From Neckera pumila (taxonomy: Eukaryota; Streptophyta; Bryopsida; Hypnales; Neckeraceae): 64,000 bases of DNA. Positions within the stretch are counted from its first letter, which is position 1; each line of letters begins with the position of its first letter. The position numbers and the translations under genes are program-made. The stretch covers positions 4,404,501-4,468,500 of the forward strand of contig OZ018417.1 of assembly GCA_963969595.1 (NCBI GenBank). The letters run 5' to 3'. The notes beneath the pieces were generated by a model. The model had not been told where the DNA came from, made no database searches, and saw only the letters and a program-made list of their open reading frames with translations. Shown piece after piece: positions 15,556-53,401 of this stretch.

Positions 15556-16475
15556 CCCCTAAAGGACCAACATGCGTTTTTTGGCATTATAGAAATTTTG
15601 GGCAAGTACCTATGACTAGAGGTTCAAATATTTTGGGCTGAAATTTTAATAGAACTTGGGGACGAGGAATATCTTTCATGTGCATTAAATTTCATGACAT
15701 TTGGAAATACGAGTCAAAAGTTATGGCCTAATATGTTACTTTTTTCACCAGGCGGGCAATTTGGGCAAATCTGAAAAAAATAATTTTTTCAGAAATAAAA
15801 ATTTGAAACTGGTTTTCTAGAATTATAAATACATGGAAAGGTTTGAATCATTCCATTCCAATCATTGAGTCAAAAGTTATGAGGGTTTTTAATTTGCGGG
15901 CAGTTATAGATTCTCTACTATAAAAAAAACTTTGTAATTGTTTATTTGACTCAGTTTTCAATATTTTTGGAAAAAAATAAAATCCTAGGATGTAGATTGA
16001 TTATTACAAAATTTCAACCGTTAGGATTGGCACTTTTTAATTCATAAATAAATTCTTAACAACTTAGTATTTTGAATCATTATCTACTTCTTTCTACTTA
16101 CTATTTTTTTCCTATATGTTGTACAATTCCAAATGATGCAAAAGATTTCAAGCATATTGCCAACTTATTTAGAAAATTGAATCCAAAGAAGCACCACCAT
16201 TTTGGACATTTTTCATAGAAAAATGAGCTTGTGAAGTGAAGCTGCCCGGTTTTTCGCAAGATTTGAAAAATGGTTTTGGAGACTTTGAATGCTTATATCT
16301 TTTGATCTTCACAGTGGAATTTTCTGAAATTTTTACCACATGTTGTTAATACATCATATTACAAGATCCTACAGTTACATGTGTCAAACTATTTTTTTCC
16401 AAAAATTTGGTAGTTGTATTAGAAATGGTAGTTTTGGAGCTTTTTTGGTGATTACATAGTCACGGACTTTAGGGG
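15556..16475 (+). mobile_element. TTAA-family element, subfamily 1, complete
   Basis: A 920-bp element from CCCCTAAAGGACCAACATGC to CTTTAGGGG, flanked on both sides by TTAT (15552-15555 and 16476-16479), a variant of the family's TTAA. It splits a composite repeat: the left flank (CCTCCCCCTCTCCCTCTTT) and right flank (AAAGCCCATAAATAAACAAA) are contiguous, in inverted form, at about 14700-14755. There the join reads TTTAAA, which contains TTAA. No open frame of useful length. Confidence 0.85.
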
Positions 16476-16479
16476 TTAT

Positions 16480-17061
16480 CCAAAGCCCATAAATAAACAA
16501 AACAGCCACCTCATTTCCAGACCATGACCACCCATAGCTCCCTACCCCACTGGTAGTTTTTGGTGCGTGGGGTCAAATCGATGAGCTTTTTAATCCACTC
16601 CCACCCATTGAGAAAAGCTTGCCTACTGGTTCCCAAATGAAAAAAAAGTGTCCTACTTGGACATCATGTTTGTTAACCCCTACATAACATTGTATAACTA
16701 GGCAATGGTCTTCCCTATAGTAGGAAGGTTTTGCATATTGTAAAAAGCTATTAGTCTCTAGATTTTAAAACAACAAAAAATCCTATTTGGACCTCATGTT
16801 TGTTAACTCCTACATATCATTGTATAACCATGCAATGGTCTTTCCTTTAGTAGGAAGGTTCTTGCATACTGCAAAAAACTGTTGGTCTTCAGATTTCAAA
16901 AGAAAAAAATGTCCTATTTGGACCTCATGTTTGTTAACCCCTACATAATATTGTATAACTAGGCAATGGTCTTTCCTATGGTAGGAAGGTTTTGCATATT
17001 GTGAAAAGCTACTGGTCTTCAGATTTTAAAAAAAAAATGTCCTATTTGGACCTTATGTTTG
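16480..17061 (+). repeat. Composite repeat, copy 2, left part
   Basis: The first 130 bp (16480-16608) is the inverted counterpart of 14605-14740 (AAGCCCATAAATAAACAAAA versus TTTTGTTTATTTATGGGCTT). It is followed by four direct ~130-bp units (CCTACTTGGACATCATG near 16648, then about 16784, 16911 and 17038). The fourth unit is interrupted at its TTAA by the element at 17066-17988 and resumes at 17993. Confidence 0.8.
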
Positions 17062-17065
17062 TTAA

Positions 17066-17988
17066 CCCCTAAAGTTCCATGACTATGTTCTCACCGAAAA
17101 CGCTCAAAAATTGCCATTTTTAGTACAAGTACCAAATTTTGGAAAAAAAACTTTTGACAGATGTAACCATAGAATCTTGTAGTATGGTGACTTGAGAACA
17201 TATGGTAAAAATTTCAGGAATTTCCACCACATGGATTGCAAGATATAAGCATTCAAATTCACTAAAACCATTTTTTTGGCCCTACAAAAAATAGGGCAAT
17301 AGCACTTCACAAGCTCACTTTTCAATGAAAAAATGTCCGAAATGATGGTGCTTATTTGGATTCTTTTTCCTACACAAGTTGTCTACATGCTTGAAAATTT
17401 TTACTTCATTTGGAATTGTACAATATATAGGAAAAAAAATAACAAGTAGATAGTAGTAGAGAATGATTCAAAATACAAAATTGTTAAGAATTTAATTATG
17501 GAACTAAAAAATGCTAATTCCAATGGTGGCAATGTTGTAATAAATAATCGACATCCTAGGATTTTGTTTTTTTCAAAAAATATTGAAAATTGAGTGAGAT
17601 AAAAGACTTCAAAGTTTATTTTAGAGTAGAGAATCCATAACTGCCCGCAAACTTAAAAATCTTCATAAGTTTTGACTCATTGATCAAAATGGGATGATTC
17701 AAAGCTTTTTACCTGTATATAACTCTAGAAAACTAATTTCAAATTTTTGTTTTCAAAAAAAGTGATTTTTTTTTTATTTGCTCGGACTGCCTAATTACAA
17801 AAAAGTAACATATTAGGCCATAACTTTTGACTTGTATTTCCAAATGTCATTAAATTTGGTGCATATGAAAGATATTCCTTGCTTCTACCTTCTATTAAAA
17901 TTTCAGCCAAAAATATAGAAATCTCTAGTTGTACGTACCTGCCCAAAAAATCTATACGGCCAAAAAACGCATGTTGGTCCTTTAGGGG
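17066..17988 (-). mobile_element. TTAA-family element, subfamily 1, complete, inverted
   Basis: A 923-bp element. Read on the minus strand it starts CCCCTAAAGGACCAACATGC at 17988 and ends ACTTTAGGGG at 17066. TTAA lies on both sides (17062-17065 and 17989-17992). It is inserted in the sequence GTTAACCCCTACATAA of a tandem unit. Intact sister units near 14863, 16674 and 16935 show the empty site with one TTAA. This is the cleanest insertion/empty-site comparison in the window. Confidence 0.92.
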
Positions 17989-17992
17989 TTAA

Positions 17993-18160
17993 CCCCTACA
18001 TAACTAGTCAATGGTCTTCTCTATGGTAGAAAGATATTATGCTTTGCTAGACAGCTGGGAAGGACTTATTAGGTTATTTGATCTTTAAATGCCCTAAAGG
18101 ACCACAAGTGTCCTCACACAATTTCAAATCCTGTTTACAGTGTTGTAACTTTTGCATCCA
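17993..18160 (+). repeat. Composite repeat, copy 2, right part
   Basis: Continues the interrupted unit (CCCCTACATAACTAGTCAATGG). It then matches the tail of copy 1: GGGAAGGACTTATTAGG, CCTCACACAATTTCAAATCC and TAACTTTTGCATCCAATGTCT parallel 15343-15450. No coding potential. Confidence 0.75.
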
Positions 18161-20321
18161 ATGTCTGAATTCAATAAACCTTATTGGAATAATTTGTGGA
18201 AAAGTTTCAGATGAATCCATGATATACTTATTTTTTGAATCCATTTGAAGTTCAAACTACATTCTAATGGCTGCAACTTTGGAGGCTTGTAGCTCTTTCA
18301 TCCAATTATCATTTTCAATTAAAAAAATTATTGGATTATGTTCCCCTTGAAGTTAGATTATTGTAGTAAAATTTTAATGTCAATCCCAGTTGTTTTCAGT
18401 ATTTGAGAGCAATTCAAAGTTCAAAATCCTAACATCTTTGGACCACAATGAACTTTGGTGGCTTATTTCTTCTTCATACAATGTCTTGTGTCTAATAAAG
18501 AAAATGTGAAAGTTGTGCATACTTTCTAGTTTGTGTGCTAAAAATTTCATATCAATCCAAGAAGGTATGAATGACTAAGAAGCATTTTAGTAGGGGGTTT
18601 AGTCTTAAATATGTTTTTTGCAACTTTTCTTGCTGTTTTTTGACATTTCAAAAGCCATTTTGCAAACACAATTAGTCAACTGAATGATATTTTCTTTCAC
18701 CAATATGTTTGTATACTGGTTTTGAATAACTTTATAGTTTAAAGTTTTTTCATCTGAGTAGGTTTAGAAATCAAATTTCACCTCCAAATGTGTTGTTAGC
18801 AAAATTTCAACATCCTTTTTCAACACTAAAACATTATAATTCTGCAATTTTATGTGGCCAAATGACTCCAAATTTGATTCATGCCATCTACAACATGAGC
18901 ACCATAAGATTGTATGGTTGAGATTTTTATATGTTAGTGACATTATATTAGATCTATAACACTTCAAAATTTTTATACATTAGATCTATAACACTTCAAA
19001 AGCAAATATGTTGAGATTTTTATACGTTAGATCTATAACACTTCAAAAGCAAATATGTTTTTAAACCTAATAAGGCCCTGGGCTTTTAGGGAGTAAGGAT
19101 TGGAGGTGATTGAAGAGCCATATAAAATAATTTTATTCACCGTAGGAGACCCTTTTGAAGGATGCAAAAGAAACCACTACTTCATTGGTAAACAATGTTA
19201 TATAAGAGAAGAAACATCTACAAGGTGGATTATGAATGTTTTCAAGAGCATTTTGTTGGAGCTACAATAAATTGAAGAAGTGCATCTAAAAAAATAGTTC
19301 TTATCTATTGTTCAATAATATGACTAGTACAATCACGGGGTGGTTCATAATTATTGTGCAAAGCTATGGATGAGTTTATATAGCCGTGATGAGAAGAAAA
19401 TGAAACTAACCAAGATGAAGATATGATGTTCACATTCTATTCGTGCAATAATTTGATTTTGCTAAAAGAACTCAAAAAAATTACATTTGCCTTTTTCTTG
19501 GGGACTCTGAGGGGATTAAGGTTGTTTTGAAAAAGGACATATAGAGAGTGCCTTTTGTCAAATTTTATTTAGGTTATGATGAACACATACAATGTTCTTC
19601 ATTGATTTTGGTGGTATAAAATTTAAGCCTTTTTGAATTATGTTTCTTCAACATGATCCATGAAATTGTTATAAAAAATTTCAACAATTTTGCAAACATT
19701 TATTTCAAGACAAAGAAAATACATTAAAGTGAATGTGAGGAAGTTTGACTAGGATTTTACTCAAATACAATATAGTTAATGCTCTATAGATAAACCTTAA
19801 AATTCTCATAAGAATAAATATATATATTTGTCCTATTAGTGAACAAGGGGGGGGGGGGAGGAGGGGGGAGATTGGTGTTACCTCAAAATTTTATTTTTGT
19901 AGAAATTAGTGCAAAAAAATAATACTTCAACTTGCACTAGTTCAAGATAGTGAAAATTATACTCTGGAGTAGTATATACTAGTGTCATGCTTACTATTAT
20001 TAAATTATGGCATACCTATTCTATTTGTTTTGGTCATTGTTGAAAATAATCTTCATAGGTGTGATTAGGCTATTTTTGTCTATAGAAATGGATGAAACAT
20101 GTGAAATACAGATAACAATTAATCTATATTCACAAAGTATCTACATTCATCATCCTAAAGCAATACCATTGCAAGATTCTATATCATTTCAGCAATATCA
20201 TTTACTGATAAAAAGTGGAATATATTGCCCATTGTATATCCTTAATATAATTTCGTCTCTTACTTCTTGAAAGAGACCTTAATATGGTAAATGCAAATTT
20301 TAGAAGTGAGAGAAAAACCTA
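18161..20321. other. AT-rich intergenic stretch with dispersed repeat fragments
   Basis: No gene seen. 18970-19060 carries a short local duplication (GTTAGATCTATAACACTTCAAAAGC twice). 19085-19200 (GGATTGGAGGTGATTGAAGAGCCATATAAA and following) is a diverged relative of the repeats at 49595 and 57022. 19848-19868 is a poly-G-rich run. 19870-19980 (GTTACCTCAAAATTTTA..AATACTTCAACTTGCACTA) recurs near 61845-61950, so it is a dispersed repeat. Confidence 0.5.
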
Positions 20322-20875
20322 CTCCCTTTGTCTCGCAATAAATCCGGGGTTTCCAAATATACTTATCTCATATTAAATTAGATATTGGCTCTCTACAACT
20401 TGATGGACAACAACTAAAGCTAGTTTGCATGCCCTAAAGCAAAAGGATCCAAAGATTCCACTCTCCAAAGACTACATAGCAATTTTATCCTTGCAAAAGG
20501 AATCAAAATGCAACCATTAACCAACCAAAGGCAAAGAATTCAACCCACAACTATATAAACACTGCTACTAACAAATCTCTTGTTGAGAATTTCCTAGACT
20601 TGGATCACAAGACATTGTCGGAATTGAATACAAAAGACAACAATGGACAGCAATGCACCAACATTGCTCAGAAAGTCATTAAAATTAATACCATTGGAGT
20701 AGTTTCAAAAAGGGCAAAAATTTGTCGCTCTTGTCGCTTGTTTTCAACATGCACCGCTTTGCCATTGACTTCCATTGTTTCCCACCTAGTGGAGTTTAGT
20801 AAAAGCCACACTAAGTCTACAATCTTTTGAAAATAAGAGCTATTCACGCATTAATCTATTGCGAGATGGAAGGAG
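20322..20875. mobile_element. Stowaway-like MITE (Tc1/mariner type), 554 bp
   Basis: Terminal inverted repeats CTCCCTTTGTCTCGCAATAA at the left and, inverted at the right, CTCCTTCCATCTCGCAATAG. A TA is present on each side (20320-20321 and 20876-20877). CTCCCTCCGT-type ends with a TA duplication are the hallmark of plant Stowaway elements. The interior holds a 76-codon frame (20600-20830) with a run NGQQCTNIAQK...VVSKRAK that vaguely recalls the helix-turn-helix start of plant mariner transposases. It is too short and diverged to call. Confidence 0.75.
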
Positions 20876-21084
20876 TAGGAATTACTAAGGACTTTTGGAA
20901 AGTTTAACCAACTATATTTGTAAAATAGCTTTAAGCAACCTTGAACAATTGATCTCTAAAGCACATCAATAGTAAATTGACTTTCAACCACAAGGTTTAC
21001 AAACTATTAGATGTCAACTTTAGAGGTTTGCTTTGAAAAGACTCTCACAAATCAACAGTTTAGTGTATGAGCCATGGTACTTAA

Positions 21085-21812
21085 CCCATAAAGGAATGAA
21101 CATTGTATTTTGGCAGTATAGTAATTTTGTGCAGCTTAGTATGAAGGAAATTTTTAATTTTTTTTTTCAAATTTTCACGCAACATGTGCCTCAGGAGTAG
21201 CTTTAAGGCCCAACAATTTTCAAAAATTTTGACCACATAGTTAAAAAGCAACGGTATGATGTGTATTTTTATTGTTCAATGTGCAATTCAAAAAACTTTT
21301 AAAAATCATTTTTTTAAGAAATAAAAATTTGAAATTAATTTTCTACTTACTATTGGTTTCCTATATGTTGTACAATTTGGTTGCATGCTTGAATTTTTTT
21401 GTGTTTTGAATCATTCACTACTTTTTTCTACTTACTATTTTTTCTTATATGTTGTACAGTTCCCAATGATCTAAATTTCTCAAGCTGCAACCAACTTGCC
21501 TTGAAGAATGAATCCAAAGAATTACCACCATTTTGGACATTTTTTCATACAAATGTGACCTTGTGAAGTGCAGCTGTCCAATTTTGTGTAGGGCCTAAAA
21601 TAAGATTTTTGTCAATTCAAACTCTAATATCTTGCAATCTGCACGATGGAAATTTCTAAAAAAATTTTGACGTCTTCTCAAATCAGCATACTATAGAATC
21701 CTATGGTTTCATGTGTCCAAAAATTTTTTTTTTCTAAAATTTTTGTATCTATATTAGAGATGGCAAGTTTTATAGTGGTTTTGGTGAAAACATAATCAAT
21801 AACCTTTGGGGA
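21085..21812 (+). mobile_element. TTAA-family element, chimeric (subfamily 3 left, subfamily 1 right)
   Basis: A 728-bp element flanked by TTAA (21081-21084 and 21813-21816). The left ~250 bp matches the arms of the foldback element at 50102-50669 (CAACATGTGCCTCAGGAGTAGC, GTTAAAAAGC). The right ~450 bp matches the right half of subfamily 1 (TTGTACAATT, ACCACCATTTTGGACATTTT, GTGAAGTGCAGCTG). Part of the middle of full copies is missing. The termini have drifted (CCCATAAAGG ... CTTTGGGGA). Confidence 0.75.
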
Positions 21813-21816
21813 TTAA

Positions 21817-29640: not shown

Positions 29641-29815
29641 CCCCTAAACGCCCAAACACCGTTTTTTGACAACATAGCAAATTTGGACAGCTCACTATGA
29701 AACATTCAAAAGTTTTTATTTTTTTCTTTGAAATTTTCACCCAACATTTTCCCAAGAAATAGCTTTAATTCTTTAAGGCCCAACAATTTTCATAACTTTT
29801 GCCTGCATGGTTTAG
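29641..29815 (+). mobile_element. TTAA-family element, subfamily 3, left-end fragment
   Basis: Begins CCCCTAAACG directly after TTAA (29637-29640). It follows the foldback arm of 50102-50289: CACCGTTTTTTGACAACATAGC, GGACAGCTCACTA, TTTTCTTTGAAATTTTCAC and GGCCCAACAATTTTC. The match fades near 29815 and no right terminus is found, so it is truncated. Confidence 0.65.
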
Positions 29816-30898: not shown

Positions 30899-31707
30899 GG
30901 TAGGGTACAATACAGAAACGACCTTAAACCCTAGCGCAAAAGCACGATATTGCCACCCAGCAGGGCTAGGGGGACAGGACTGGGTCATTCATCGAAGAAA
31001 ACTCAATGCACTTGTATCACCCCCGCGGTAATCTTCCACCTCAACAAAACCATGCCATGAAACAGAAAAGAACCACCGAATCCCCAAAAAATCACAGAAG
31101 ACAAAAGAAGAGAAAATTACAGAGTTTTTGGCAGCGGTCTCCCTGAAATTCAGCAAATCTTGTAAACGCATAAGGATTACAAAATGAACTGAAAATCCCT
31201 AGAATCTCCTCGCCCTCTACTCCGTCGGCATGAGGCGGATGATATCCGAGTCCCTGGGGTCAATAATACTCAGCGTACAAACCCGGAAGTACTTCCCGCA
31301 GGAGTAAAATACAGAAGCGACCTAAAAGCCTAGCGCAAAAGTACGACATCGTCACCCCGTGATGCCAGTTCCCGAATTAGGGTTTAAAGGACCCGTCTAG
31401 GTCATTCATCTCCTAATTCTCAATGCAATGGCATCACTCCTAATCTTCACCCTCAACAACAGAATGCCATGAAACATGAAAGCTCCACCGAATCTTGAAA
31501 ATCAAAGACGACACAAGAAGAAGGAAATTACATCCATTTTGACAGCGGTCTCCCTCAACAAATTCAGCAAATCTTGAAAACCCATAAGGATTACAAACAA
31601 CGACCTTAAAACTCTAGAAGTGTCTACTCAGTCGGCATGGAACGGATAATATCCGAATCACCAGGGTCCGTAATACTCAGCGTACAAACCCTAAAGTACT
31701 TCCCGCA
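30899..31707 (-). repeat. Tandem duplication (~400 bp) of the RPL30 3' end
   Basis: Copy 1 (about 30899-31300) and copy 2 (about 31301-31707) share, in order, ATACAGAA(A/G)CGACC, CTAGCGCAAAAG, GGTCATTCATC, CTCAATGCA, TGCCATGAAACA, AGCGGTCTCCCT, AAATTCAGCAAATCTTG, CATAAGGATTACAAA and the last 27 codons of RPL30. The offset is about 400-407 bp. Copy 2 belongs to the intact gene. Copy 1 lies downstream and contains only the C-terminal coding part plus 3' UTR. Confidence 0.9.
31217..31300 (-). pseudogene. Orphan C-terminal fragment of ribosomal protein eL30
   Basis: Twenty-seven codons plus TAG encode [19 protein letters not shown] and the end IIRLMPTE. They differ from the intact gene's C-terminus at only three residues (T to I, G to R, S to L). 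The homology stops abruptly upstream at the duplication breakpoint, with no ATG and no splice acceptor (the join reads CTCCTGCGGG). It cannot make eL30 alone. It could act only as part of an extended 3' UTR of the intact gene. Confidence 0.88.
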
Positions 31708-31959
31708 AGCCGTGCCCAAATCCACATTATTCCCACTGTAGTGGTGCACGCCTGTCTTGGACAACATGGCGTAGTACTCGATCTCGGACTTGCGGAGAGG
31801 CGGGCAGTTGTTGGCGATGATGACCAGCTTGCCCTTGCCGCCCCGGAGCGACTTCAAGGTCGTGGTGTAGCCGAGCGTGTACTTCCCGGACTTCATCACC
31901 AAGGCGAGTCGGTTGTTGATCGACTCCTGCGCCTTCTTCGTCTTCTTGGTGGCCACCAT
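31624..31959 (-). CDS. RPL30: 60S ribosomal protein eL30
   Basis: A 111-aa protein of the eL30 family, a component of the large cytosolic ribosomal subunit. Family landmarks are all present: the N-terminal [50 protein letters not shown], the [15 protein letters not shown] block and the ending DPGDSDIIR. The length equals the usual eL30 length. I use the ATG at 31959, in a strong context (CACCATGG). The in-frame ATG eight codons upstream would add a tail not known in the family. The coding part is uninterrupted, although plant RPL30 genes often have introns. The gene keeps a good promoter with telo-box and TATA, so it looks functional. An intronless origin by retroposition is possible. Its last 27 codons and 3' UTR are tandemly duplicated downstream. 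Expression is probably coordinated with other ribosomal protein genes through the telo-box. Confidence 0.97.
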
Positions 31960-32078
31960 GGTGAAGGAATTGGGTGAAGACAACGTGGGGACGATGGAAG
32001 CTCGCTGGTGATGCGCAAAAGAAAGCTTCGTCGTGGAGCTTCGGGTGGATTTGGGTGTGCTCTAGCACTCTGGGCACC

Positions 32079-33035: not shown

Positions 33036-33930
33036 TTACTTTTCATGAGATCATCTCTATATTGATAACATGTGTGCCAAATTTCAAATTCAAAAGATTC
33101 ACACAAAAAAAATATTCTTATTCTACCAAAATGTGTAATTATGAGAATGATTTTTTCAACCTTTGGGATAGTGTCATTTTATGGGTAAAATTTCACATGG
33201 ATGTAAAAATCATTCTCACAACTATACATGTTGGTAGAATTAGAATATCTTCTTTTTGTGTGAATCTTTTGGACTTGAAATTTGGTACACATGTTATCAA
33301 CATAGACATAGTCTCAAGAAAAAAAGTTTCACAGTAAATTGTTTTTTCCTCAGCCCTTGGGATAGTGCAAAGTTGGTAGTAGTGAATTTTTTCTCACAAT
33401 TACACATTTGGGTAGATTTCAAATATCGTTTTGTGTGTGGATCTTTTGACCTTCAAATTTAACACATACGTTATCAATATAGAGATGATCTTGCAAAAAA
33501 AAATTCATTATAAATAAGCAATTTTTCAGCCCTTGGGAAGGTGTCAAAGTTGCCAGTAGTGAAATTGTTTCTCACAACTACACATGTTAGTAAATTTAGA
33601 ATATCTTTTTTGTATAGATCTTTTGAACTTGAAATTTGTCACACATGTTATCAACATAGAATTGATATCTTTTAAAAAAATTCATGGTAAAAAAATAAAA
33701 TTTAGCCCTTGGGAGGTTGTCAAAGTTGGCAGCAGTGAAATTTTTCTCACAGCTACACATGTTGGTAGTTTTTGTGTATCTTTTTTTGGATGAATCTTTT
33801 GACCTTAAAATCTGGTACACATGTTATCAGCATAGAGATGATCATGTGTAAAAGATTTCATGATAAAAAAACAATTTTCAGCCTTCGAGAAGGTGTCAAA
33901 GTGGGAAGCAGTGAAAGTTCTTTTTCTGGA
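33036..33930. repeat. Foldback followed by four ~180-bp tandem units
   Basis: Direct units contain GAATCTTTTGGACTTGAAAT, ACACATGTTATCAACATAGA and CAGCCCTTGGGA..GTGTCAAAGTTGG. The ATGTTATCA phrase falls at 33291, 33468, 33645 and 33831 (spacing 177, 177, 186). A further partial unit at 33036-33155 is inverted: TTGATAACATGTGTGCCAAA faces TTTGGTACACATGTTATCAA. The 33036-33325 segment can therefore fold into a hairpin with arms of about 115 bp. No coding role is apparent. Confidence 0.85.
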
Positions 33931-36470: not shown

Positions 36471-36908
36471 TTTAGGGTTTGAGGCGCGCCCTGTTTTCTA
36501 TGTATTCTTATGCCCCGTTTTTTCTGAGCTCGTTTCTGCGCGAGTTAGTTCAGTTAGTTCATTGATTGTGTCGTTGCAGGTCTCTTCGCCGTCTTTCACT
36601 TACAGAATTAGGAATTAGAACGAACTGATTCTCACACAGGTTTTAGGGGCAAACCTTCTCCAAACCTATTTCTTCTCGTTTCATTGCACTTATCGAATAC
36701 TCTTAGAACTTCATGTTGAACACTGACCACTTTTTTCTGACAACAGGTCCAAGAACTCAAATTTCTGCGACTCATACAAGCCCCATTTGTCCAGAGTCCA
36801 ATTGTTAGGGTCCTGTGAGGCTTGCAGTCCAGTCAAGCGGTGCAGTTTTCATTGCTGCAAAATTTCGAACTGAATCGGTTTTTTCCTTTAAATTATTCTT
36901 CCACCACC

Positions 36909-39900
36909 ATGGGTCCGATTCGGAAGCTCCCGTGCACAGGAAACCAGGGATTAAGGCTCGTCCGGGCTCTGGGATTCTTCCCACAAGACCCTCACCAAAG
37001 ATGGAGTAGCACCACCACTAGCAGTGCTGTGCGAGGGGACTTGAAAGCTGGAGAGGCAGATGTAGCGATTGTGGGAGGTGGGATTGTGGGGTTGGCTACT
37101 GCTCGTGAGATTGTGACAAGGTTTCCGAGCGCCAAAGTGGTGGTGGTGGAGAAGGAGCAAGACATTGTGAAGCACCAAACTTCTCACAACAGGTGAGAGA
37201 TGATCTTCGATTGTTTATATTCATTTCTTACAACTGTTGCATGGAACTCCTGTTTGTCCCCATTCCTGGAGAGGTGGCAACTATGGACTGCATATGAAAG
37301 AGCTCGGTTGTATGTTGTCCTTCTTTAGCTTTAAGGTGTCCTTTTTTCTTGATTGAACAAGAAAAAAGTCATTGAAATTACGTCTGGTAACGTGAAAGTA
37401 GAGCCTGTTTTGGAAGTAATATCCCTTGTCACTGATTCGGCATGTTCGTCCTCATATCGAGACTCTACTCTTTCACTCTACCGAGTTCATTTTGTGCCTA
37501 CTTCAGTTGGGAATTAAATGTCGAGGTTTGGAGATGAGCGGCACAGATGAAAATTAGAGTCCATTTCTGGAGAGGTGGCAACATTCTACGCATTGCATAT
37601 AAAGAGCGTCGTTATATGTTGACCTTCTGTAGCATTAAGGTGTCCTTCTTTGAGACCTTTGATTGAACAAGATTCAGCCCTTAAGTTAACGTCTGGTAAA
37701 GTAGAGCCAGGTTATGGATTATCTGAGGCCAATACAACTATTTTGTTCTACTTGGGGTTTGATGCCATGAGCAGGACATATAAAATTTTGTGACATATGG
37801 GACGCACAGTGGAGTGATCCATGCAGGGATTTACTACGAACCCGGGAGTGACATGGCGAAGCTGTGCGTGGACGGGAATCGCCTCATGTACGAGTACTGT
37901 GAAAAGAAGAATCTCCCCCACAAGCGCGTGGGCAAGCTCATCGTGGCCACTCGAGAGTCGGAACTTCCGATTTTGGAAGATCTCTACAGTAGAGCTTCAG
38001 CAAACGGCGTGCAAGGCCTGGAGCTTCTGTCACCCAAGCAGATCGTGGACCTGGAACCCAACGTCCGGGCGCTTCGTGCTTTGCATTCACCGAATACTGG
38101 TATTGTGGACTACGCCAAGGTGGGGCGGTCGTATGCTGAGGATGTGCTTGCTACTGGACGGGGACAAATACGGACTGGGTATGCTCCCTGCAACTCTCTT
38201 GAGAAATCATGTCTCTATGCTTCATGTTATGCCTCATGTTATGCTTTATGTAGAGCATTCTTTCTTCTTTCCATTGATATATGACATGATTTCTCTTAAT
38301 GCTTCCTCAGAGAATATGAAGTGTGGTTTTCACATCATACATCATCATTCGACTTGCTCTTCTCTCTTTTGCTTTTGTGACATGAAAATTTTATACTGAA
38401 GTGCTTGAGCTATAAGATAGTAATATTGTTTTTGGAAATTTGTAAAAAATTGTACTGCAACATATCTGTATCGTATCATTGCTTTATGTAGAGCCTTCTT
38501 TCTTCTTTCCATTGAATATATTACTCCGAAGTACATGATTTCTATCGAAGCTTCCTCAAAGAATACTTATTGGATGGAGTGCGAATTTCACAACATTCAT
38601 CATCCACCGAGTGGATGGTGGAGCGCCTAGGGGTTAACGTAGCTCAGCTGATAAATCAATAACTTGTTTACAGTAGATCAGTATTCTCCTACTTCAATCG
38701 TGTTTCAGCGTTAAAATTACTGGTTGCTCTCATTACTGAAGCTCGGGCCACTTTAGATTGCAAAGGTCGAAGCACCGCGCTTGAGATAACAAGGAATCCT
38801 ACACGTATTTAGGCTGGCAAACGAAAAAACAACACAATGTCTCTCTGACTGAATACATTAAGAGTACAATATGCGTGATTGTGGTGCATTTAGGTATGGT
38901 GTTGGTTTCATTTGATTAAGTAACAAGAACGAGCATGAAGACCGGCATGAGGTGGCACTTACATGGCTTCTATGTGTTATGGTGAAAATATTTGCGATAA
39001 CAAGGTTTTCAGCTACCTATTTGAGGTGGATTGGACACTTGTTACCTCAAATGCGTCAAAAAGTATCATAAATGCAATGGATCATTTATGAGCTTGTTAT
39101 GTCACCCCTTGTCGCACATGATGTTAGTTTTTTGGTCCCAGTTTGAAGCTTGTTGCTTCAACCTGTGCAATCCTAGTAAGATTTGTCTGGTGTGTGTCTT
39201 TTTCACACTGGGTGGTGTAAAACTGTCCTGAAGAACTTGGGCTAAATCGTGATGGCACATTTTCGAGAATTGGCTTACAATCAATTCTTGCCACGTTTTG
39301 TACGTCTGTGGATCATTTATAATGTATGTACACACGGAATCTGCTATGATGCATACTCAATAAACGAAATTTATTCTTACAATAGTTGCTGATCGGTCGT
39401 CAATGACTAATGAGAAACGAACTACGCTGTGGCCCTATAGAGTTGAGCTGGGTGAACAATTGAGCTGAAGTATAGTTGCTATGGACAAGTTTGCGCATGT
39501 GCTTTCAGTAAATTTTTTCTTTCAGAAAGTGTGAAGCGATCTCCCTTAGGAACACGGTTGCACACAAAGCTGTGAGAATTAAAATGGGAAAGAGCAGTGA
39601 ATTGGGTAGATATGCTGGTCGCGTTTGCCATTTTTTTTTTAAGTAGGGTCATCACCTGGACGTTTAGTCTAGTAATTCTTGTTGGGGCTAAACATTGCCA
39701 GATTTTGGCAAAACTTTTGGTCTTGCGACAAGTCTGTAAGAAAGTTAAGGAGGAAATTGCAATTATTCTACCAGATTTCATTGATTTTTTGTTGATCTTG
39801 TTTGTAAATCACCTGAAAATGTATTGTAGCTACCAAAATAACAAGAACCGTGGAACATTCCCACTAAGTCCTCTATATTCTTGCAGCCACCTCAGCGAAA

Positions 39901-42900
39901 ATGGATGTTTTTTTTATAAAGGCTTACATAGACCTGATTCATATCTGAAAATAAGAAGGTCATGCTGTTGTCCTGCAGGTTTGAGGTGACCGGAGTTGAT
40001 GCAGATGCTGCTAGAGGGGTGACGGTGCAGAGTAGAACGGGAGAGGAGGTCAAAGCCAAGTGGCTCATTACATGTGGAGGTTTGCAGGCCGATTATGTGG
40101 GAAGGATGGCAGGAGGGGCCAAAGGCCCCACGATTCTCCCTTTCCGGGGTCATTATCATGAGCTGAAACCCGAGTACAGGAGTCTCATCACTCGCAACAT
40201 ATACCCTGTCCCTGATCCCAGGTTAGTGCTTCTTCCCAATTTTCCCTTTCTCTCTCTTTTATTCTTAGAACTCTTAACAAAGTACTTGTAGGTGTTTCAG
40301 TTGCTAATCAAAGAGGAGAGGGGTTATGACATTCAGTAGAAATTTTTTTCATTTAAGAAGGCATACAAGCATCCATAACCCTGAAAATCTGTCCATGAGT
40401 AGACCGGTTCTGTCTGATAACCAGCTTGAAGTGGCGGATGACTTGGTGCTGGTGCTCCCGCTGCTCGTCGTTCCCTCTCCTCTCGCTCGTTGTCTAGTCC
40501 ATATTTTTCCTCCTCATTCTAAGCTCGTAGATCAACCAAAAATATAGGTTTAAATGTTCTCAGATAATACTCGACACATCTGCATTGAGTAATCAACTTA
40601 GCATTATTGAACATAATGCCAAGAGTTGCCCAGTTGAGAGAGGTTTAAATCCCATAACATGTGAACGCTTTGATGAACTAAAAATGTACACTCTTAAATG
40701 TTCTCGATTCAAGAGTGCAACTTTGCATTACGTCACATAACCTTGTCAAGCCTCCTGGGCTCACAAAGGTTATCTAGTCCATAACAATTCTCATTGTGTT
40801 GCAGTTTCCTAGTGTTTTCGATACTGAGCCTGAATGAACTAGCATCATTTCGTAATGTTAGCATAACTAGGCAATGCAGATGTGTCAAGTGTTCTTTGGC
40901 TGAGAGGGCAGTTCTTTGGCTGACGACCCAGTATCCAGTGTTAAATGCGAACCCTTTTAATGAACCAGAGAGCACATTCTTGGACGCTCCTGATTCAAGA
41001 GTGCAACTTGGTATACTCCTGTAACCTCCTTGGTCCGCCCGGGCTGTTTAAGGGTATCTACACAAAATAGTAAAATTAGGTTGCCTTAACAATTAGGTTG
41101 CTTTACCCCAAGAAAGTTACTCTACAAGCCATCAAAGTCAACAAATATTGTTACAAATTCTTCCATTTGTACACATGGAGGTTCATGAGTCCCAATTACA
41201 CCAATAACTAATTCAAAAGTAGTGTATTCTTGTACAGTAAGAGTAAATATTTATTTAGTGTCAGATGTCAAGAAATTAGTGAGGGACAGCCTAATTTCAC
41301 GATTTTGTAGTTCATTTTCAATTGAAGGGATTTGAGTGTCAGATTCATGATGATGGAGCTTGAAGAAGAGGCAAATAACGCAATGGTCTTGGTGTGTTTT
41401 GTAGGTTTCCTATGGTGGGCGTGCATCTAACTCCGCGCGTGGATGGTCGTGTCCTTATTGGTCCTAACTCTGCTTTAGCATTGTCCAAGGAGGGTTACAA
41501 GTTTTGGAAGGTGAACATCAAAGACTCTCTCCTCTTCGCCATCGACAAAGGGTTGTGGAAGTTGGTCCTCGGCAACCCTGGCATCGTCTTTCAAGAGATT
41601 TGGAGAGATATCAACACTCGCGCCTTTGTGGGGGAAGCAAAAAGGTGCGGAATCTTGCCCCTTCTTTTTACTATCCCTTTCGCTGGCCTCGTTGAATTTG
41701 TTTACGTTAGCTTTGCAACCAATAGGCAACTGAATAACACGAAAATGGTAACAGACCGGGTGTTCATGTGCTAAGTGCGTAACCTCAATGGAGCCAGTTT
41801 CTGTAGATATACTATTCTTCTTGGGTTTGGAGAGCAAGGTTATATATCTCACAATCCTGTCCTTCTTTACTATTACTTCAGTATTATAGTGTCCTTTTCT
41901 GACCCTTGATTGAGCGTGATTTTAACATGACCCAATGATTGAGGTCATGTCTGGTAATTTAAAAGTGGAGCCTTGTTATGAACATAATATCCTTCACCAC
42001 TCCCGTGAGGCATGTGATTTCCCATCACGAACCTCTACTTTCATATTACAGAATTCATATTCATTGCATTCGCATAATTTCATAAATTGACGTATTTGAA
42101 AAAGGGTTCTCATCTAGGACCTGGAGTGGTTTGAGACACTCATATGAAACCTTAAAATCTATATATCATCCTAGATTTTAAGCTATGAGGTTCTAATTGG
42201 GCAACTAACAACCCATTTGAGCACTTGAACGTCACATTTTGGCACACTCCAAAGATGAGTTCCAATCAACTTCATAGCATTTATGATTAATGCAAATGGG
42301 TTGTCTTTAATGAATAGTGTAGTTGACACATATGTAGTGTGTTGGTCTCTGTGTGCTTAAGGTTAAGAGTCTACCAAGTGCAAAACATTTTGCATGTAGC
42401 CACATACTTTTAGGAACGCTTCAACATGCTTAACCCTTTTAACTCCTGAATCCTTTTTTTGAGTGATTGCACATTTATTCCCTTGTATCATTTTACAAGT
42501 ATATATTTACCCTTAATTTCATCAAATTCGTCATAAAAAAAAGGCTGTCTCTAAAATTCAAGTATTACTTTGAATGAATGAGAAGTTATTGGGGCAAAAT
42601 ACCACGATGAAGCACTGTATTCATTGTTGTCCAGAATATGGACTTTGGAGCACTTCCGGATTTCAAACCTGACGTTAGTAAGATCCTTTGCCTAAAGAAA
42701 TAACTTATCCTGGGTTTACTGATGTTACTTATGAATGCTTTGTGGTTCCATGATATAACAGGTATTGTCCAAAGTTGGAGGTGGCATACACCACCCATGG
42801 GTGGGCTGGAGTGCATGCCGTGGCAATTGATGACCATGGGAAAATCATTGGCAACTTTCTGTTTGAAAATGGGTCCTCCGGTGTTGTCCTGAATGTGCGA

Positions 42901-44790: not shown

Positions 44791-45289
44791 TTATTATTAA
44801 ATTGGTAAAATTTTCATGGCAAGTGAAAGGGGGTTCCAATACACCAAAGAATGTGATATTTGGATACCGTATGCAAAAGTTATGAAGGGTCAAAGTTTTT
44901 TTTGTAGATGTTCTAAAATTATTTCTTCAACGTACGTACATATTGATTTTGGAAATGTACACAAGGTAATGATAGTGGTCTTAGGTAGGGTACAATTTTT
45001 GATGTACCCACCTTACAGCAAATGAATGAGATGACTATTATAAAAAGGATGCACTTTATTTAAGTTTTGGACTTGATTTCGTGATGTGCTACCAGTGCAA
45101 TATACTTCAAAATTTCATACCAATATATTCTTGTCAACAAAAAGATACATTGAAATCTAAATTTGTCCTTTAGAAAAAACGAATTTTTTTGTCTAAAACA
45201 TGATGTGAAACTTGCAACTTGCTGCGGATTTTGGGTGGTGTTCATTATTTTAGTTGCCTAATATTTCTTCAAAAGTCCTTGTCTTCACC

Positions 45290-45690: not shown

Positions 45691-45984
45691 AAGGCCACTA
45701 AGGAATTGATTTATGGGACCCCTGTGGTGCAATTTTAGAATGAATAAAAAAAAAAAAAATTTTAAGAAAATATTTTTTTTTCAAAAAAAATATTAAAAAA
45801 ATATAAATCTGATGTGGCACTACTAGTGCCCCATCAGCACCCCATTTTTAAATATTAAAAAATAATTTTTTATTTTGGTTTTTTTCCATAATTGCATCGG
45901 GCGGGTGCCAAACTCGCAGCCTTCTAGAAGATTGAAATTTTTCCTAATGATGGAGCATTGATCAAGAGTGGGTTGCCTCATAAA

Positions 45985-46119
45985 ATTTAGTGCATATGAA
46001 AGATATTCCTTGTTCCCATCTTGTATTAAAATTTGGGCCAAAAATATGGGAATTTCTAGTCACATGTACCAGCTCAAAATTTCTATGTATCCAAAAAAAG
46101 CATGTTGGTTCTCTAGGGG
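45985..46119 (-). mobile_element. TTAA-family element, subfamily 1, 5'-end fragment, inverted
   Basis: The right edge reads GCATGTTGGTTCTCTAGGGG followed by TTAA (46120-46123), the inverted subfamily 1 start. The match runs leftwards through CAAAATTTCTAT, TCTAGTCACATGTACC and GAAAGATATTCCTTGTTCCC and stops near 45985. Only about 135 bp remains. Confidence 0.7.
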
Positions 46120-46246
46120 TTAAAAGTCCTTGTCTTCACCTCTAGGTGGCATTAACTTATACTCTGAATTGATTTTGGTTTTGAGATTAAACAACCAGAT
46201 TTTAGAGAGATTAAATGCCTCCCCCAGAAAGTCTATTCTTCATTAA

Positions 46247-47168: not shown

Positions 47169-47172
47169 TTAA

Positions 47173-47684
47173 CTACAATACTTTTTTTCACTGTAATGTG
47201 ACATCATTTTTGACACACTTGTGAATCTTCCACATCTTGGAAAGCAAAAAATCTTCCACCATAACATTGTATATGGTAGTCTGCTTTAAAAGCACCCATT
47301 TAAGGGCTAATATGCCTTTCTCTTGGGCTTGCACAAACAAAATGATTTTTAGCTTATTTTTCAGAGGAAGATAAATGAATTTAGAATGTAGCAGAAGTGG
47401 TTTCATATTTTTCCAAGCAATTATGAAATAGTTATGATTTTTTGAACATGTTGATTGTAGGCACCTATTTTTTACCATAGGTCTTCCAAAATGCATACAC
47501 AAGCGGTCCGTAAAGAGAGCTATAGAAATGGAAAAGAAATATGATGACCAACAATATAGAACAATTGAGCCGGGGTCTTTAATGCGACCTTCATTTTTTT
47601 AAGTATGACCCATGTTTGTATCAACTTGATTCTATAGATTTTGCATTCTTTATAAAGAGTAGTTAGTGGACCAACTCTAATTTT
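47173..47684. other. Right part of the segmental repeat, no gene seen
   Basis: 47190-47290 (GTGACATCATTTTTGACACA, CCACATCTTGGAAAGCAA, GGTAGTCTGCTTTAAAA) parallels 54608-54625 and 55635-55670. Minus-strand frames at 47188-47502 and 47520-47807 show no motif. Confidence 0.45.
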
Positions 47685-47687
47685 TAA

Positions 47688-48187
47688 GAGCATCTCCACC
47701 CGTCCGCACCACAACTGACGCGCTAGACGGCGGGTGGAGAGTGTCAGGAGCAATGAAGGGGTCGGGGAGTTGTTGCTCCCCCACCAATATCCTCCACAAC
47801 ATGTCAATTAAGGCGCAGGGTAGAGAGCTAGTTCACTCCCTAATGCTCCAACTTTATTGTTTTTTGTAGTAGCATTTAATACCCTGGCCACTCTCATCAC
47901 CAAGTCAATCACGCTCCCATCTCCAAGCCAAAACAATAGAATATAAATAATTTTATGTGGCCCGACTACACTTTGCTCTTGAGAAGCGTGCCAAATCATT
48001 GTTTTCTTTGACTGGTGTGGTGCAAGTCAAATGGGGATGACATTGCAACTTGAAGTGTCTAGGGAGTTTTTTCAAGTAGCCTGCGTTGAATATTAGCATA
48101 GATTGCAATTGGTGGGACATTTAATTTTCTTTGGACGCACCAAAACATTTGAGAGGGGCAGTGTGGCGCACCCTGGTGGAGATGCTC
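47688..48187. mobile_element. PIF/Harbinger (Tourist)-like MITE, 500 bp
   Basis: Inverted ends GAGCATCTCCACC(C) ... GGTGGAGATGCTC with TAA on each side (47685-47687 and 48188-48190). The 3-bp TWA duplication and MITE size fit the PIF/Harbinger superfamily. Beyond the first 13 bp the two ends remain similar (GTCCGCACCACAACTG versus GGGTGCGCCACACTG). Minus-strand open frames inside (47808-47999) show no transposase motif. Confidence 0.85.
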
Positions 48188-48380
48188 TAATCTTGAAAAT
48201 GGACTGGAGCACCTAATAATTTAATCCATACTACAAGCCTAATACATTACCTGACACACTTGAAAGCGCACCCACTTCATGCACAACCATTTAATGTCTC
48301 TCGCAGAGCCATTTTACAATTACGTGATGTCGATTTCAAATTTAATTACAAGGCCAATCTCTAGAAGCCAAACGCTTTAA

Positions 48381-49303
48381 CCCCTAAAGGACCGATTGTC
48401 CCCTCGGGGAACAATTTGGGTTCGGGCAGGTTCCTATGATCTCAATTTTTAGTAATCTTTTTTGGGATTTTTTGAGGTTGTGTAATTTTGCGAGATCTTT
48501 GCAAATATATGATTTTTATTTTAATTGATGCCTGGGAGCAAAAGTTATGGCATAATAAGTAAAATTGAAATTTTGCGGGCAGCACAAAAAAAATCACAAA
48601 AAGTTAAAATAACTTTTTTTCAAATTTTTTCTTCAAAGACTATATTTTTGTCTATATGTGAAGCTTTGTTTCATTCGATTTGGACTAATTATGAGAAAGT
48701 TATGGACAATCTTAGTTTTTCGGGCAATCTAAGCATCTTCTTGAAAAAATAAGTTGTAGAATTCATTTTTGAATGCAATTTTGAGAATTTTTCAAATTTT
48801 TTTGTTAGATAGGGTTAGATTTTTTCGCTAGAACAATCTCACCATTGAGATTATTTTGATTCAGTTCTCATCTAAAAGCTATTAACAATTTAGTTTTTTC
48901 TTCAATCTTGTACCCACCTCTACATAACAATTTTTTAATGAGTGAAAATTAAGTGCTTTCTTCCTAAATTTTTTTGGTAGATTCTCAACTCAACTACTTA
49001 ACATAAATAAGTAGAAAATCGAAATCAGTAGTGCAAAAACTTTGAACTAAAAAGATTCAAAGCCAAAAAATCTAGTCAAGCAAGGTGGAAAAAACTTATT
49101 TTCTTCACTTTAAATGCATATCTTGCAATCTACGTGGTCAAAATTTCTGAAATTTCTTCCACATATTCAGATACTGGTCAAATATAAGATTTTATGGTTG
49201 GATATGCAAAAAAAAAACAATTTTTTAAACTCTTTTCTCTTTGCAATAGAAATGACAGTTTTGAATGGTTTTTGGTAGGAAAATCACCTTGGTCTTTTAG
49301 GGG
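48381..49303 (+). mobile_element. TTAA-family element, subfamily 2, complete
   Basis: 923 bp from CCCCTAAAGGACCGATTGTC to GGTCTTTTAGGGG, flanked by TTAA (48377-48380 and 49304-49307). After the shared CCCCTAAAGGACC the end differs from subfamily 1 and contains a small palindrome (CCCCTCGGGG). Interior landmarks such as TCTGAAATTTCTTCCACAT and AGAAATG(G/A)CAGTTTTGA show common ancestry with subfamily 1. No coding frame. Confidence 0.88.
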
Positions 49304-49594
49304 TTAAGAGCAAACTACTATGACAAAGCAATGCATTAGAGGGGATTTGAGGCCTCCAAGAGATTGCGAGTTATCTTGTGTTCCTAGATTGCGGGAATGC
49401 AAGATAATTGTTGGCTGATGTGGCCAACCCCGTGCCACGTCATTTTCAAAAAAAATAATAATAATAATAATTGCTTAAAGTGATATTTGGGGAAGAATAT
49501 GTGTATATATATATATATCAATAAAATAATTAAATAAACCTTGCCCACGAGCACCCTAGATGGGGCCTCCAGATCCATCTCCCCATGGAAACAA

Positions 49595-50095
49595 AGCCTT
49601 ATCCCGCGGAGGGATTAGAAGAGCCATATAAGACAATTTTGTTCATATAAGACAATATTGTTCAGTGTAGAGGCCCGCTTCTCAAGTATGCAAAAGGCCC
49701 TCATTGGTAAGAATGTTTTATGCCCTCCAAATACAATCCAAATTTTGTAGAAAAAGTTCGGATTTGATGCTGTACAGTACTGTAGTAAGTGAGTGAGTGA
49801 GTCATCATTGGTGCAGCAGGAGCCTTAATTCTTACTAGTAAGTTAAGTTATCGTGATCAGAAATTTTGTGCCGTGGGATTGTGGGTAGATGAACAGCAGG
49901 GATGTGCCCACATCATTGGATTTGAGCTCCAGCCAGTAAGGCATGAGCAATTGGCTTTTGTCAGACAAGTTGGACGAATGGAATCTTAAATTTTGATCTT
50001 ACCACACCCAACAATACTTCAATCAGTAACCAAGTGGACAAGTGGAGGCTCAATGTGATGACTGATGAGGGGGTACGTGCAGGAAAGATAGTTGG
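49595..50095 (+). repeat. Dispersed repeat, copy A (partner at 57022-57560)
   Basis: Shared in order: GGGATTAGAAGAGCCATATAAG, CAGTGTAGAGG, ATGCAAAAGG, CAATCCAAA.TTTGTA, AAGTGAGTGAGT, AAATTTTGTGCCGTGGGAT, GGGATGTGCCCAC and TTTGAGCTCCAGCCAGTAAG. This copy lacks the 169-bp MITE present in the partner and so preserves its empty site (TTTTGTAGAAAAAG). A third fragment lies near 19085. Confidence 0.8.
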
Positions 50096-50101
50096 CATTA
50101 A

Positions 50102-50669
50102 CCCCCAAAGGACCAAGCACCCTTTTTTGGCAACATAGCGATTTTGGGCAGCTCACTACGAATGGAGTTTTTATTTTTTTTCTTTGAAAATTTTACACAA
50201 CATGTGCCCGAGGAGTAGCTTTAAGGTCCAACAATTTTCGTAGCTTTTGACTATACAGTTAAAAAGTTATTGCATGATATGTGATTTCATATGGTTTTGA
50301 AAGACTCCATACCTACCCTCAAACTTAAAATCTTCATAGCTTTTGACTCATAGATCCAAATTTAATGGTTCAAAGCTTCACACTTCTATATAAATCTAAA
50401 GAACCAATTTCAGATTTTTATTTTTTTTAAAGTCATTTTTAAAGAAGTTTTTTGAGCTGCCCGGACTGCCGGCCGTCCAATGAAAATCACATATCATGCA
50501 ATAACTTTTTAACTGTATAGTCAAAAGCTACGAAAATTGTTGGGCCTTAAAGCTACTCCTCAGGCACATGTTGTGTAAAATTTTCAAAGAAAAAAAATAA
50601 AAACTCCATTCGTAGTGAGCTGCCCAAAATTGCTATGTTGCCAAAAAACGGTGCTTGGTCCTTTAGGGG
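50102..50669. mobile_element. TTAA-family foldback derivative (subfamily 3) with ~188-bp near-perfect arms
   Basis: 568 bp flanked by TTAA (50098-50101 and 50670-50673). Arms 50102-50289 and 50482-50669 are inverted copies with about five mismatches that I can see (roughly 97% identity). They share GGACCAAGCACC, GGGCAGCTCACTACGAATGG, CAACATGTGCC and GTTAAAAAGTTATTGCATGA. The spacer of about 190 bp is itself related to the interior of subfamily 1 but inverted. A transcript of either strand would form a long hairpin. Confidence 0.92.
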
Positions 50670-50680
50670 TTAATCCTTAA

Positions 50681-52515
50681 CCTCTAAAGAACCATTGTCG
50701 GTTTGGCGGACATTTGGGATTTTGGGTAGATATGTACAGGCTGAATTTTTGTCCTGGTTTTTTTAAACTTTTTTGGAAGATGGAAAACTGATAAGCTTCA
50801 TGGGAATATAATTCTTTTTTCAATTGGTGCCCGGGAACAAAAGTTATGCCCAAATAAGCTCAAAACAGGGGAGAGGGGGTAACAACTTTATTTTTACAAA
50901 AAAATTTAAAAAAAATTTAGAAATTTTTTCCCATAGATTGTATTTTTGTCTATCTGGAAAGCTTTGATTCATTCCATTTCCTTTTTTATGAGAAAGTTAT
51001 GGACAATCTAATTTTTTGGGCTCTTAGAGCATCTTCTTGAAAAAACAACTTGTAGGATTCATTTCTGAATGCAATTTTTAAAATTAAAAAAAAAAAAGTT
51101 CCATGTGGTTTAGTTTTTTTGCTAGAACAATCTCACCATTGGAATTAGTGCATTTTAATACCATATAAAAAGACATTAGTATTTTAGATTTTCCTTCAAT
51201 CTTGTACTTAATTCTACTTAACAATTTCTTTTAATAATGAAAATTAAGTTTTAAAAAAAAAAATTTTGTTAGACTCTCAACTCAATTCTTCACTATAAAG
51301 ATTTAAAGCTCAAAACTCTACAGCGCAAAAACTTGAAGTTAAACATGTTCAAAGTCAAAAAATCTAGTCCCAAAATGTGCTGAAAAACTTGTTTTTTTCA
51401 CTTTAACCCCTAAAGGACCAACATGCGTTTTTGGGCCGTATAGAAATTTTGGGCAAGTACGTGTGACTAAGGATATCCATATTTGAGGCTGAAATTTTAA
51501 TAGAAGGTGGGGACAAGGAATATCTTTATGTGTACCAAGTTTCATGACATTTCAAAATACGAGTCAAAAGTTGTGACTTAATATATTACTTTTTTTTGTA
51601 ACTGGGCAGTTTGCTTAGATCAGAAAAACTAATTTTTTCTGTAAGTTTTTTTTGGAAATTGGTTCTCTACATTTATACATACTTAGAAAAGCTTTGAGTC
51701 ATTCCATTTCAATCAATGAATCAAAAGTTATGAGGGTTTTTAGTTTGCAGCCAGTTATGAATTATCTACTCTAAAAAAAACTTTAAAGTTGTTTATTTAA
51801 TTCAATTTTCAATGTTTTTGGGAAAAAAAAAATCCTAGGATGTAGATTGATTATTACAACATTACAACCGTTGGGATTGGCATTTTTAAATTCCATAATT
51901 AAATTTTTTAACAATTTAGTATTCAAATCATTTTCTACTTCTTTTTACTTATTATTTTTTTCCTGTATGTTGTACAATTCCAAATGATGTGAAATTTTTC
52001 GAGCATATACACAACTTCTTTAGGGAATTGAATTCAAAGAAGCACCACCTTTATCGGCATTTTTGCATTGAAAAGTGAGCTTGCAAAGTGCAGCTGCCCG
52101 GTTTTTTGCAGGATTAAAAAAATGGTTTTCAAGACTTTGAATGTTTATATCTTATGATCTACATGGTGGAATTTTCTGAAATTTTTACCACATGTTTTCA
52201 AAATATACTACAAGATCCTATGGTTACATGTGTCAAAAATAAATTCCAAAAATCTGGTAGTTGTATTAGAAATGGCAGTTTTGGGGCGTTTTTGGTGATT
52301 ACATAGTCATGAAACTTTAGGGGTTAAATACAGATATCTTGTAATTTGTGCGGTCAATAATTCTGAAACTTTTTCCACACATTGTCATACTAGTTAGGCA
52401 TAAGATCCTACGATTAGATGCAAAAAATTCTATTGTCAATTTTTTTTAGTCTTTGCTATAGAAATGGCAGTTTTGAATGTTTTTTGGTTGAAAAAAGGTC
52501 GTGTTTCTTTAGGGA
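50681..52515 (+). mobile_element. TTAA-family element, subfamily 2, interrupted by a nested subfamily 1 copy
   Basis: Left end CCTCTAAAGAACCATTGTCG after TTAA (50677-50680); right end GTTTCTTTAGGGA. Without the nested element (51407-52323 plus one TTAA) it is about 914 bp, the family length. The order of blocks equals 48381-49303: TGCCCGGGAACAAAAGTTAT, TATTTTTGTCTAT, GGACAATCTA, AGCATCTTCTTGAAAAA, AGAACAATCTCACCATTG. Confidence 0.85.
51407..52323 (+). mobile_element. TTAA-family element, subfamily 1, nested inside a subfamily 2 copy
   Basis: 917 bp from CCCCTAAAGGACCAACATGC to AAACTTTAGGGG, TTAA on both sides (51403-51406 and 52324-52327). The host element's sequence is continuous across it: TTTTTTCACTTTAA on the left continues as AATACAGATATCTTGTAATT on the right, matching the intact subfamily 2 copy near 49098-49130. 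This insertion is therefore younger than its host. Confidence 0.92.
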
Positions 52516-52519
52516 TTAT

Positions 52520-53401
52520 CCCCTAAAACCATAAGTACCATTGTTCCTTCGAGGGACAAATGGGAATTTTGGGCAAGTACCATTTTATCCAGAGTTTTTG
52601 AAACTTTTTTTGAAGATAGAAAAGCTAATTAGCTTTGTGTGAATATAATTTTTTTTCAATTAGTACCCGGGAATAAAAGTTATGCCCCAAACAACTCGGA
52701 ACTTGGAAGGGTGGGGGTGGGGGGGAGGGGGCAGCAAAAAAATATTCAAAATATTCAAATTTTTTTTTTCCCCCTCATAGATTATATTTTTGTATACCTA
52801 AAAAGCTTTGATTCATTCCATTTGGATTTGTAATGAAAAATTATAGACAATCTTGTTTTTTGGACAATTTGAGCATCTTCTTGAAAAGATAACTTGTAGG
52901 ATTCATTTATGAATGCCGTTTTCACAATTTTTCAGAAAACAAAATTTCACATGGTTTAGTTTTCTTGCTAGAACAATCTCATCATTGGAATTAGTGCATT
53001 TTAGTTCTATTTTAGAGATATTAATAATTTAGATTTTCCTTCTATCTTGTATCTATTTCTACTTAACATTTTTTAAAGTTTGAAAATTAAGGTTTTTTGA
53101 ATTTTTTTTCCTAGACTTTAACTCAATTCTACACTCTAAAGCTCAAAACTGTAGTGCAAAAAATTCCAGTTAAAAAAGTTCAAGTCAAAAAATTTAAATC
53201 CTTTTTCTACTTTAAACAAATATATCTTGCAATTTGTATGGTCAAAAATTTTGAATTTTTTTCCATACATTCTCATACTAGTTGGGTATAGGATCCTATG
53301 GTTAGATGTCCAAGAAAACAATTTTCAAAACTTTTTGCTCTTTGCTATAGAAATGGCAACTTTGAGTGTTTTTTGGCAGAAAAAATGCCTTGGTCCTTTA
53401 G
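52520..53401 (+). mobile_element. TTAA-family element, subfamily 2, adjacent copy with decayed right end
   Basis: Starts CCCCTAAAACCATAAGTACC directly after TTAT (52516-52519), which also borders the preceding element, so the two abut. Interior blocks match 48381-49303 (GTACCCGGGAATAAAAGTTA, AGCATCTTCTTGAAAA, GAACAATCTCATCATTGG). The right end reads TTGGTCCTTTAGGAATC, so the terminal GGGGTTAA has mutated. Confidence 0.75.

Follow-up and report, generated by a model that had tools for sequence, protein, structure and literature searches.

What kind of transposon inserts a non-coding element of some 920 bp at TTAA sites in a moss genome, and which enzyme moves it? The question arises from a 64,000-nucleotide stretch of Neckera pumila (contig OZ018417.1 of assembly GCA_963969595.1, positions 4,404,501 to 4,468,500), here called the window, for which a first-pass annotation, made from the letters alone, proposed thirteen copies of a non-autonomous family driven by a piggyBac-like transposase. 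One part of that proposal stands, namely a non-coding DNA transposon with a 4-bp, TTAA-type duplication: the copies almost certainly form a non-autonomous, TTAA-targeted DNA transposon family that duplicates 4 bp of its target. The piggyBac-like enzyme is the part that does not stand as firmly; movement by a piggyBac-type transposase is the probable reading, with membership in that superfamily unproven. Papers cited below by PMC number are represented by excerpts, and individual copies are named by their first position where this is unambiguous.

Target site and target duplication

Full copies have the termini CCCCTAAAG...CTTTAGGGG. A terminal motif can be placed at 21 element ends (positions 52516–52519, common to two elements, are counted twice), and these adjoin TTAA in 17 cases and TTAT in four, against a TTAA background of 0.8% of window positions. 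Both ends of 6414–7724, the window-cut left end of 1–770, and the damaged, missing or indistinct far ends of 29641, 45978, 52520 and 56121 lie outside this count. Eight copies retain both ends and seven of them have identical flanks (six TTAA/TTAA, one TTAT/TTAT and one TTAA/TTAT in all).

Further evidence comes from unfilled relatives of the insertion sites. The flanks of seven elements were joined and compared with the window; relatives that run across the site occur for three of them (17066, 51407 and 15556), each with the four bases present once, and none occurs in the window for 46247, 48381, 50102 and 21085. At 17066, a single TTAA is found in all seven tandem sister units that align across the site; a few bases past it, the element's right flank is missing 10 bases present in those units. 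At 51407, all three B-type sister copies (subfamilies are described below) read TTTAAA, which contains one TTAA, with alignment gaps located away from the site. At 15556, the joined flanks align without gaps over 97 bp to 14753–14657 (−) and are 91% identical to it; where the flanks have their one TTAT, the relative reads TTGT. The wider relative of these flanks, 14532–14753, is rearranged further left, where the next part matches 14532–14607 (+) in inverted orientation. Insertion of the family duplicates 4 bp at the three sites with an unfilled relative, as the first-pass annotation had proposed.

The same annotation named an alternative, a TA-duplicating element of Tc1/mariner type with ACCCC...GGGGT ends and a preference for TTAA, which produces an identical string at TTAA sites. 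The moss Physcomitrella has Tc1-like elements that duplicate TA, but they end in CAGT (PMC4054914). The earlier suggestion that the TTAT/TTAT copy favours a 4-bp duplication is borne out by its related unfilled site: non-palindromic TTAT flanks 15556–16475 on both sides and its gapless 97-bp relative has the four bases once, so that TA duplication is refuted for that copy. We reject the TA model there, and for the family a Tc1/mariner-type origin has next to no probability.

Copies in the window

Nucleotide profiles (nhmmer --max) matched all 13 stretches listed previously; these profiles were made from the same copies and show kinship, not independent discovery. The earlier count was short by one, a decayed copy on the minus strand at 6414–7724 found with nhmmer, with ends read from the sequence. 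Together the 14 copies (Table 1) cover 10,999 bp, or 17% of the window. The window has 11 occurrences of the end motif CCCCTAAAG, whereas 100 shuffles average 0.47 and none reaches 11; ten occurrences are element ends and the exception lies at 61793. Likewise, TTA[AT]CCCCTAAA followed 500–1000 bp downstream by TTTAGGGGTTA[AT] gives five pairs in the window and none in 20 first-order Markov shuffles.

The reported range of 914–923 bp for full copies agrees with measured lengths of 920, 923, 922, 923 and 917 bp, together with 914 bp for 50681–52515 after subtraction of its nested copy. Among the listed borders, 45985–46119 is better placed at 45978–46119 and the 52520 copy ends near 53402–53404. 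All stretches are family members, although several are not simple copies: 50681–52515 is one element divided by 51407–52323, 1–770 is truncated by the window edge, the 56121 copy has lost about 17 terminal bases, 50102–50669 is a foldback, 21085–21812 is internally shortened, and 29641–29815 is a left end with an indistinct right border.

Table 1. Copies of the TTAA-flanked transposon family in the window
Positions	Strand	Copy	Flanks (left/right)	Remarks
1–770	+	A, left part truncated by window edge	/TTAA	
6414–7724	−	Decayed, B-like	TTAA/TTGA	Split by probable 516-bp insertion 6924–7439
15556–16475	+	Full A, 920 bp	TTAT/TTAT	Unfilled relative 14657–14753 (−)
17066–17988	−	Full A, 923 bp	TTAA/TTAA	Within 131-bp tandem array; unfilled sister units
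21085–21812	+	Internally shortened, 728 bp	TTAA/TTAA	Left diverged, right A-like (80% to A consensus)
29641–29815	+	Left-end piece	TTAA/	Right border indistinct
45978–46119	−	Left-end fragment, A-type		CCCCTAGAG end adjoins TTAA
46247–47168	−	Full A, 922 bp	TTAA/TTAA	
48381–49303	+	Full B, 923 bp	TTAA/TTAA	
50102–50669	+	Foldback derivative, 568 bp	TTAA/TTAA	Two left ends
50681–52515	+	Full B, 914 bp without nested copy	TTAA/TTAT	
51407–52323	+	Full A, 917 bp	TTAA/TTAA	Nested in B copy 50681–52515; site unfilled in B sister copies
52520–53404	+	B, right end damaged	TTAT/	Left TTAT common to 50681–52515
56121–57017	+	A, minus about 17 bases of right end	TTAA/	

Subfamilies and history of spread

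Two subfamilies are separated with 100/100 support in a tree of the nine A and B copies. Subfamily A comprises six copies (1–770, 15556, 17066, 46247, 51407 and 56121), to which 45978–46119 adds an A-type left-end fragment, and subfamily B comprises three (48381, 50681 and 52520). The 923-bp A consensus is 59% identical to that of B across 890 shared columns; Kimura two-parameter distances are 0.09–0.31 within A, 0.27–0.42 within B and 0.67–0.78 between them. Within the A consensus, BLAST returns one repeated pair (137–170 with 293–326), and no sub-repeat exceeds a z of 3.5 in a shuffle test. In their left parts, 21085, 29641 and 50102 are 72–79% identical to one another; compared with A copies they are mostly at 66–73%, with 75–82% in stretches of 33–124 bases. 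From these values, they possibly represent a third subfamily.

The foldback at 50102–50669 consists of two left ends arranged as 186-bp arms with five mismatches; shuffled sequence folds far less well than it does (z −35). It has TTAA on both sides, so two left ends were enough for its insertion. Its arms are 97% identical, compared with 91% for the closest pair of family copies, and this likeness points to a late origin of the foldback or to correction between the arms. The A copy 51407 lies within the B copy 50681 and was therefore inserted later. The two deep subfamilies, the nested copy and the foldback built from two left ends show that the family has spread in several rounds.

Coding capacity

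The A consensus has no open frame, with stops in all six frames, and A–B mismatches have no codon rhythm (p 0.54 overall and 0.86 in the right third). Pfam was compared with 49 of the 102 closed stop-to-stop open reading frames (ORFs) of at least 75 aa and with the open-ended ORF at 63249. None of these 50 is a transposase, with a further 53 closed ORFs of at least 75 aa unscanned; the only domains that pass the cut-offs are L7Ae/L30e, pieces of an FAD/NAD-binding oxidoreductase, and AP2. The lack of open frames in the A consensus and of a transposase among the ORFs scanned makes the family non-autonomous as far as the window shows.

A 92-aa frame at 17107–17382 (−) was considered as a protein and rejected; the same frame contains stops in several copies. 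Two metagenome ORFs, P0121 and P0122, match 60% and 45% of it, respectively, at 71% identity; the JGI contigs that contain them are 3,244 and 1,280 bp long. We read them as ORFs called within other copies or pieces of related elements. A 21-base internal motif has no match in public genome contigs, from which entries close to the genome of the window may be absent, and its one match in a viral contig was judged to be chance by eye over 1.5 kb around it rather than by alignment.

Selected function is not claimed for conserved A–B blocks, in which up to 23 of 25 positions are identical and clustering has p 0.02, because agreement within A also gives p 0.02 and the alignment itself clusters matches. 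Nor is RNA folding of a full copy claimed (z −2.0; one of 20 shuffles folds at least as well). No Rfam family reaches its gathering score in the window and ARAGORN, run with the bacterial code, finds no transfer RNA genes there.

Which transposase moves the family

A transposase supplied from another genomic locus would recognize the CCCCTAAAG ends in trans; the element would be cut out and then joined at TTAA, or rarely TTAT, with a 4-bp stagger, and repair would double the four target bases. We suggest that this enzyme is of piggyBac type. TTAA duplication is recorded for both piggyBac and Kolobok, and their ends differ: Kolobok termini are 5'-RR...YY-3', which those of piggyBac are not (PMC9587614). 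A Kolobok-type element would account for the TTAA-specific 4-bp duplication and is reported from chlorophytes and rhodophytes, but the hosts named in the excerpt of that paper include no land plant and the moss family has 5'-CC...GG-3' termini. Kolobok identity is rejected on these termini and is very unlikely.

Ends that start with CCC are counted for the piggyBac-type reading. The ends quoted for piggyBac are CC[C/T]T, with terminal inverted repeats (TIRs) of 12–19 bp (PMC2872659). Intact moss ends read CCCCTAAAG and share the initial CCC, whereas their fourth base differs. The A-type TIR is 9 bp when perfect and 9–14 bp with two mismatches; in the B copy 48381 it is 8 bp when perfect and 13 bp with one mismatch. 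A mining study gives broader limits for piggyBac, with TIRs of 4–24 bp and starts of CACTA, CCCTC, CCCTT and CCCAT, and it records a few insertions at sites other than TTAA (PMC10813416). The CCCAT and CACTA starts imply that CC[C/T]T is not strict.

The moss family resembles piggyBac and its TTAA-flanked miniature inverted-repeat transposable elements (MITEs) in its TTAA duplication, CC-starting ends, rare non-TTAA sites and non-autonomous derivatives. It differs in the C at the fourth base, the 9-bp TIR in A, the land-plant host and an enzyme that is unseen. Coral CMITEs are likewise TTAA elements without coding sequence that have been assigned to piggyBac, and their families share sequence in the interior as well as at the ends; they are about 100 bp long, whereas the moss elements are about 920 bp with short TIRs (PMC2872659). 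Under the MITE size criterion of 50–800 bp, the full copies are too long and only the derivatives of 568 and 728 bp are short enough; the family has the other MITE features, lack of coding sequence and a target-site duplication.

Four observations weigh against a piggyBac-driven family: the absence of a transposase among the 50 scanned ORFs, the CCCC start where CC[C/T]T is quoted, the 9-bp perfect A-type TIR where 12–19 bp is quoted, and the one two-ended copy of eight with unlike flanks. For the first three of these reasons we consider piggyBac-type movement probable and put it no higher.

A 4-bp target duplication is also a feature of Sola elements, and the moss family shares it. The main named rival keeps the element as described but has a Sola-type transposase move it. 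One table of plant transposons includes Sola1 for Physcomitrella, itself a moss (PMC9033089). No Sola enzyme is present among the ORFs scanned, and the comparison covers duplication length and host; this explanation is unlikely.

A TTAA-duplicating lineage outside all described superfamilies would be in keeping with the CCCC start, the 9-bp TIR in A and the land-plant host, and with the lack of any TTAA superfamily in the excerpted plant MITE survey (PMC12550479). We regard such a lineage as doubtful; TTAA duplication and CC ends are otherwise piggyBac habits, and its enzyme, too, is unseen. A more specific version, held with equal doubt, is a long-lived lineage of the mosses' own, with TTAA duplication, CCCC...GGGG ends and an enzyme distinct from those of Kolobok, Sola and animal piggyBac. 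Such a lineage might have kept a non-coding element about 920 bp long on the move as the subfamilies diverged to 59% identity, a history that we likewise consider improbable. A piggyBac-type enzyme remains our preferred explanation.

Other features of the window

The decayed copy 6414–7724 contains a 516-bp stretch (6924–7439) with inverted ends AAACACCTAAA...TTTAGGTGTTT. This is probably another TIR element, unrelated to the family, and no clear duplication of its target was seen. Tandem arrays occur at 33213–33916 (period about 176 bp), 57884–58270 (about 162 bp) and 60435–61658 (about 94 bp), and another at 14812–17071 (about 131–133 bp) is broken by two transposons of the family. Near the last, a solitary stretch at 18090–18110, CCCTAAAGGACCA, has 13 bases that resemble the transposon end; a related stretch near 15380 reads CCCTAAAGGAACA.

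An uninterrupted eL30 frame lies at 31624–32061 (−). Among the best 120 of 3,372 matches, the eL30 proteins of the mosses Physcomitrium patens and Ceratodon purpureus share 99% identity with it over 111 aa, with 94% for a liverwort, 95% in four rows and 80–89% for other named plants; the highest-scoring row, at 80%, is a sturgeon record flagged for contamination. As a single conserved gene it is slender evidence for the host, yet it clearly reads as moss. Pieces of an FAD-dependent oxidoreductase (DAO) follow one another in order in three ORFs at 36819–40288 (+) and are probably exons of what we take to be an L-2-hydroxyglutarate dehydrogenase gene. The frame of an AP2-domain (ERF-type) transcription factor at 63249–63998 (+) extends beyond the window.

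Occurrence in plants and significance

The first-pass annotation considered such elements rare or undescribed in land plants. That view fits a survey of 207 plant genomes, including four bryophytes, which recognizes five MITE superfamilies, none of them piggyBac, and a special group, Micron; the word piggyBac is absent from its main text as excerpted (PMC12550479). Its 800-bp ceiling would miss elements of 920 bp. On the other side, repeat tables apply the piggyBac label to 1,230 pieces (122 kb) in a fern (PMC6890710) and to one piece of 75 bp in a grass (PMC8319324), and two insect papers mention piggyBac in plants in passing (PMC10813416, PMC10140906). Among the papers listed in searches of the open literature (up to 20 per search, where several searches had far more matches), no title or displayed abstract describes TTAA elements in a moss; subscription journals and Repbase lie outside this search.

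The family fills about a sixth of the window and its ends are a substrate on which a piggyBac-type enzyme could be tested. If the enzyme is of that type, land plants would join the range of a major transposon superfamily through a concrete case that is open to test, and the range of piggyBac, a widely used genetic tool, would be extended with it.

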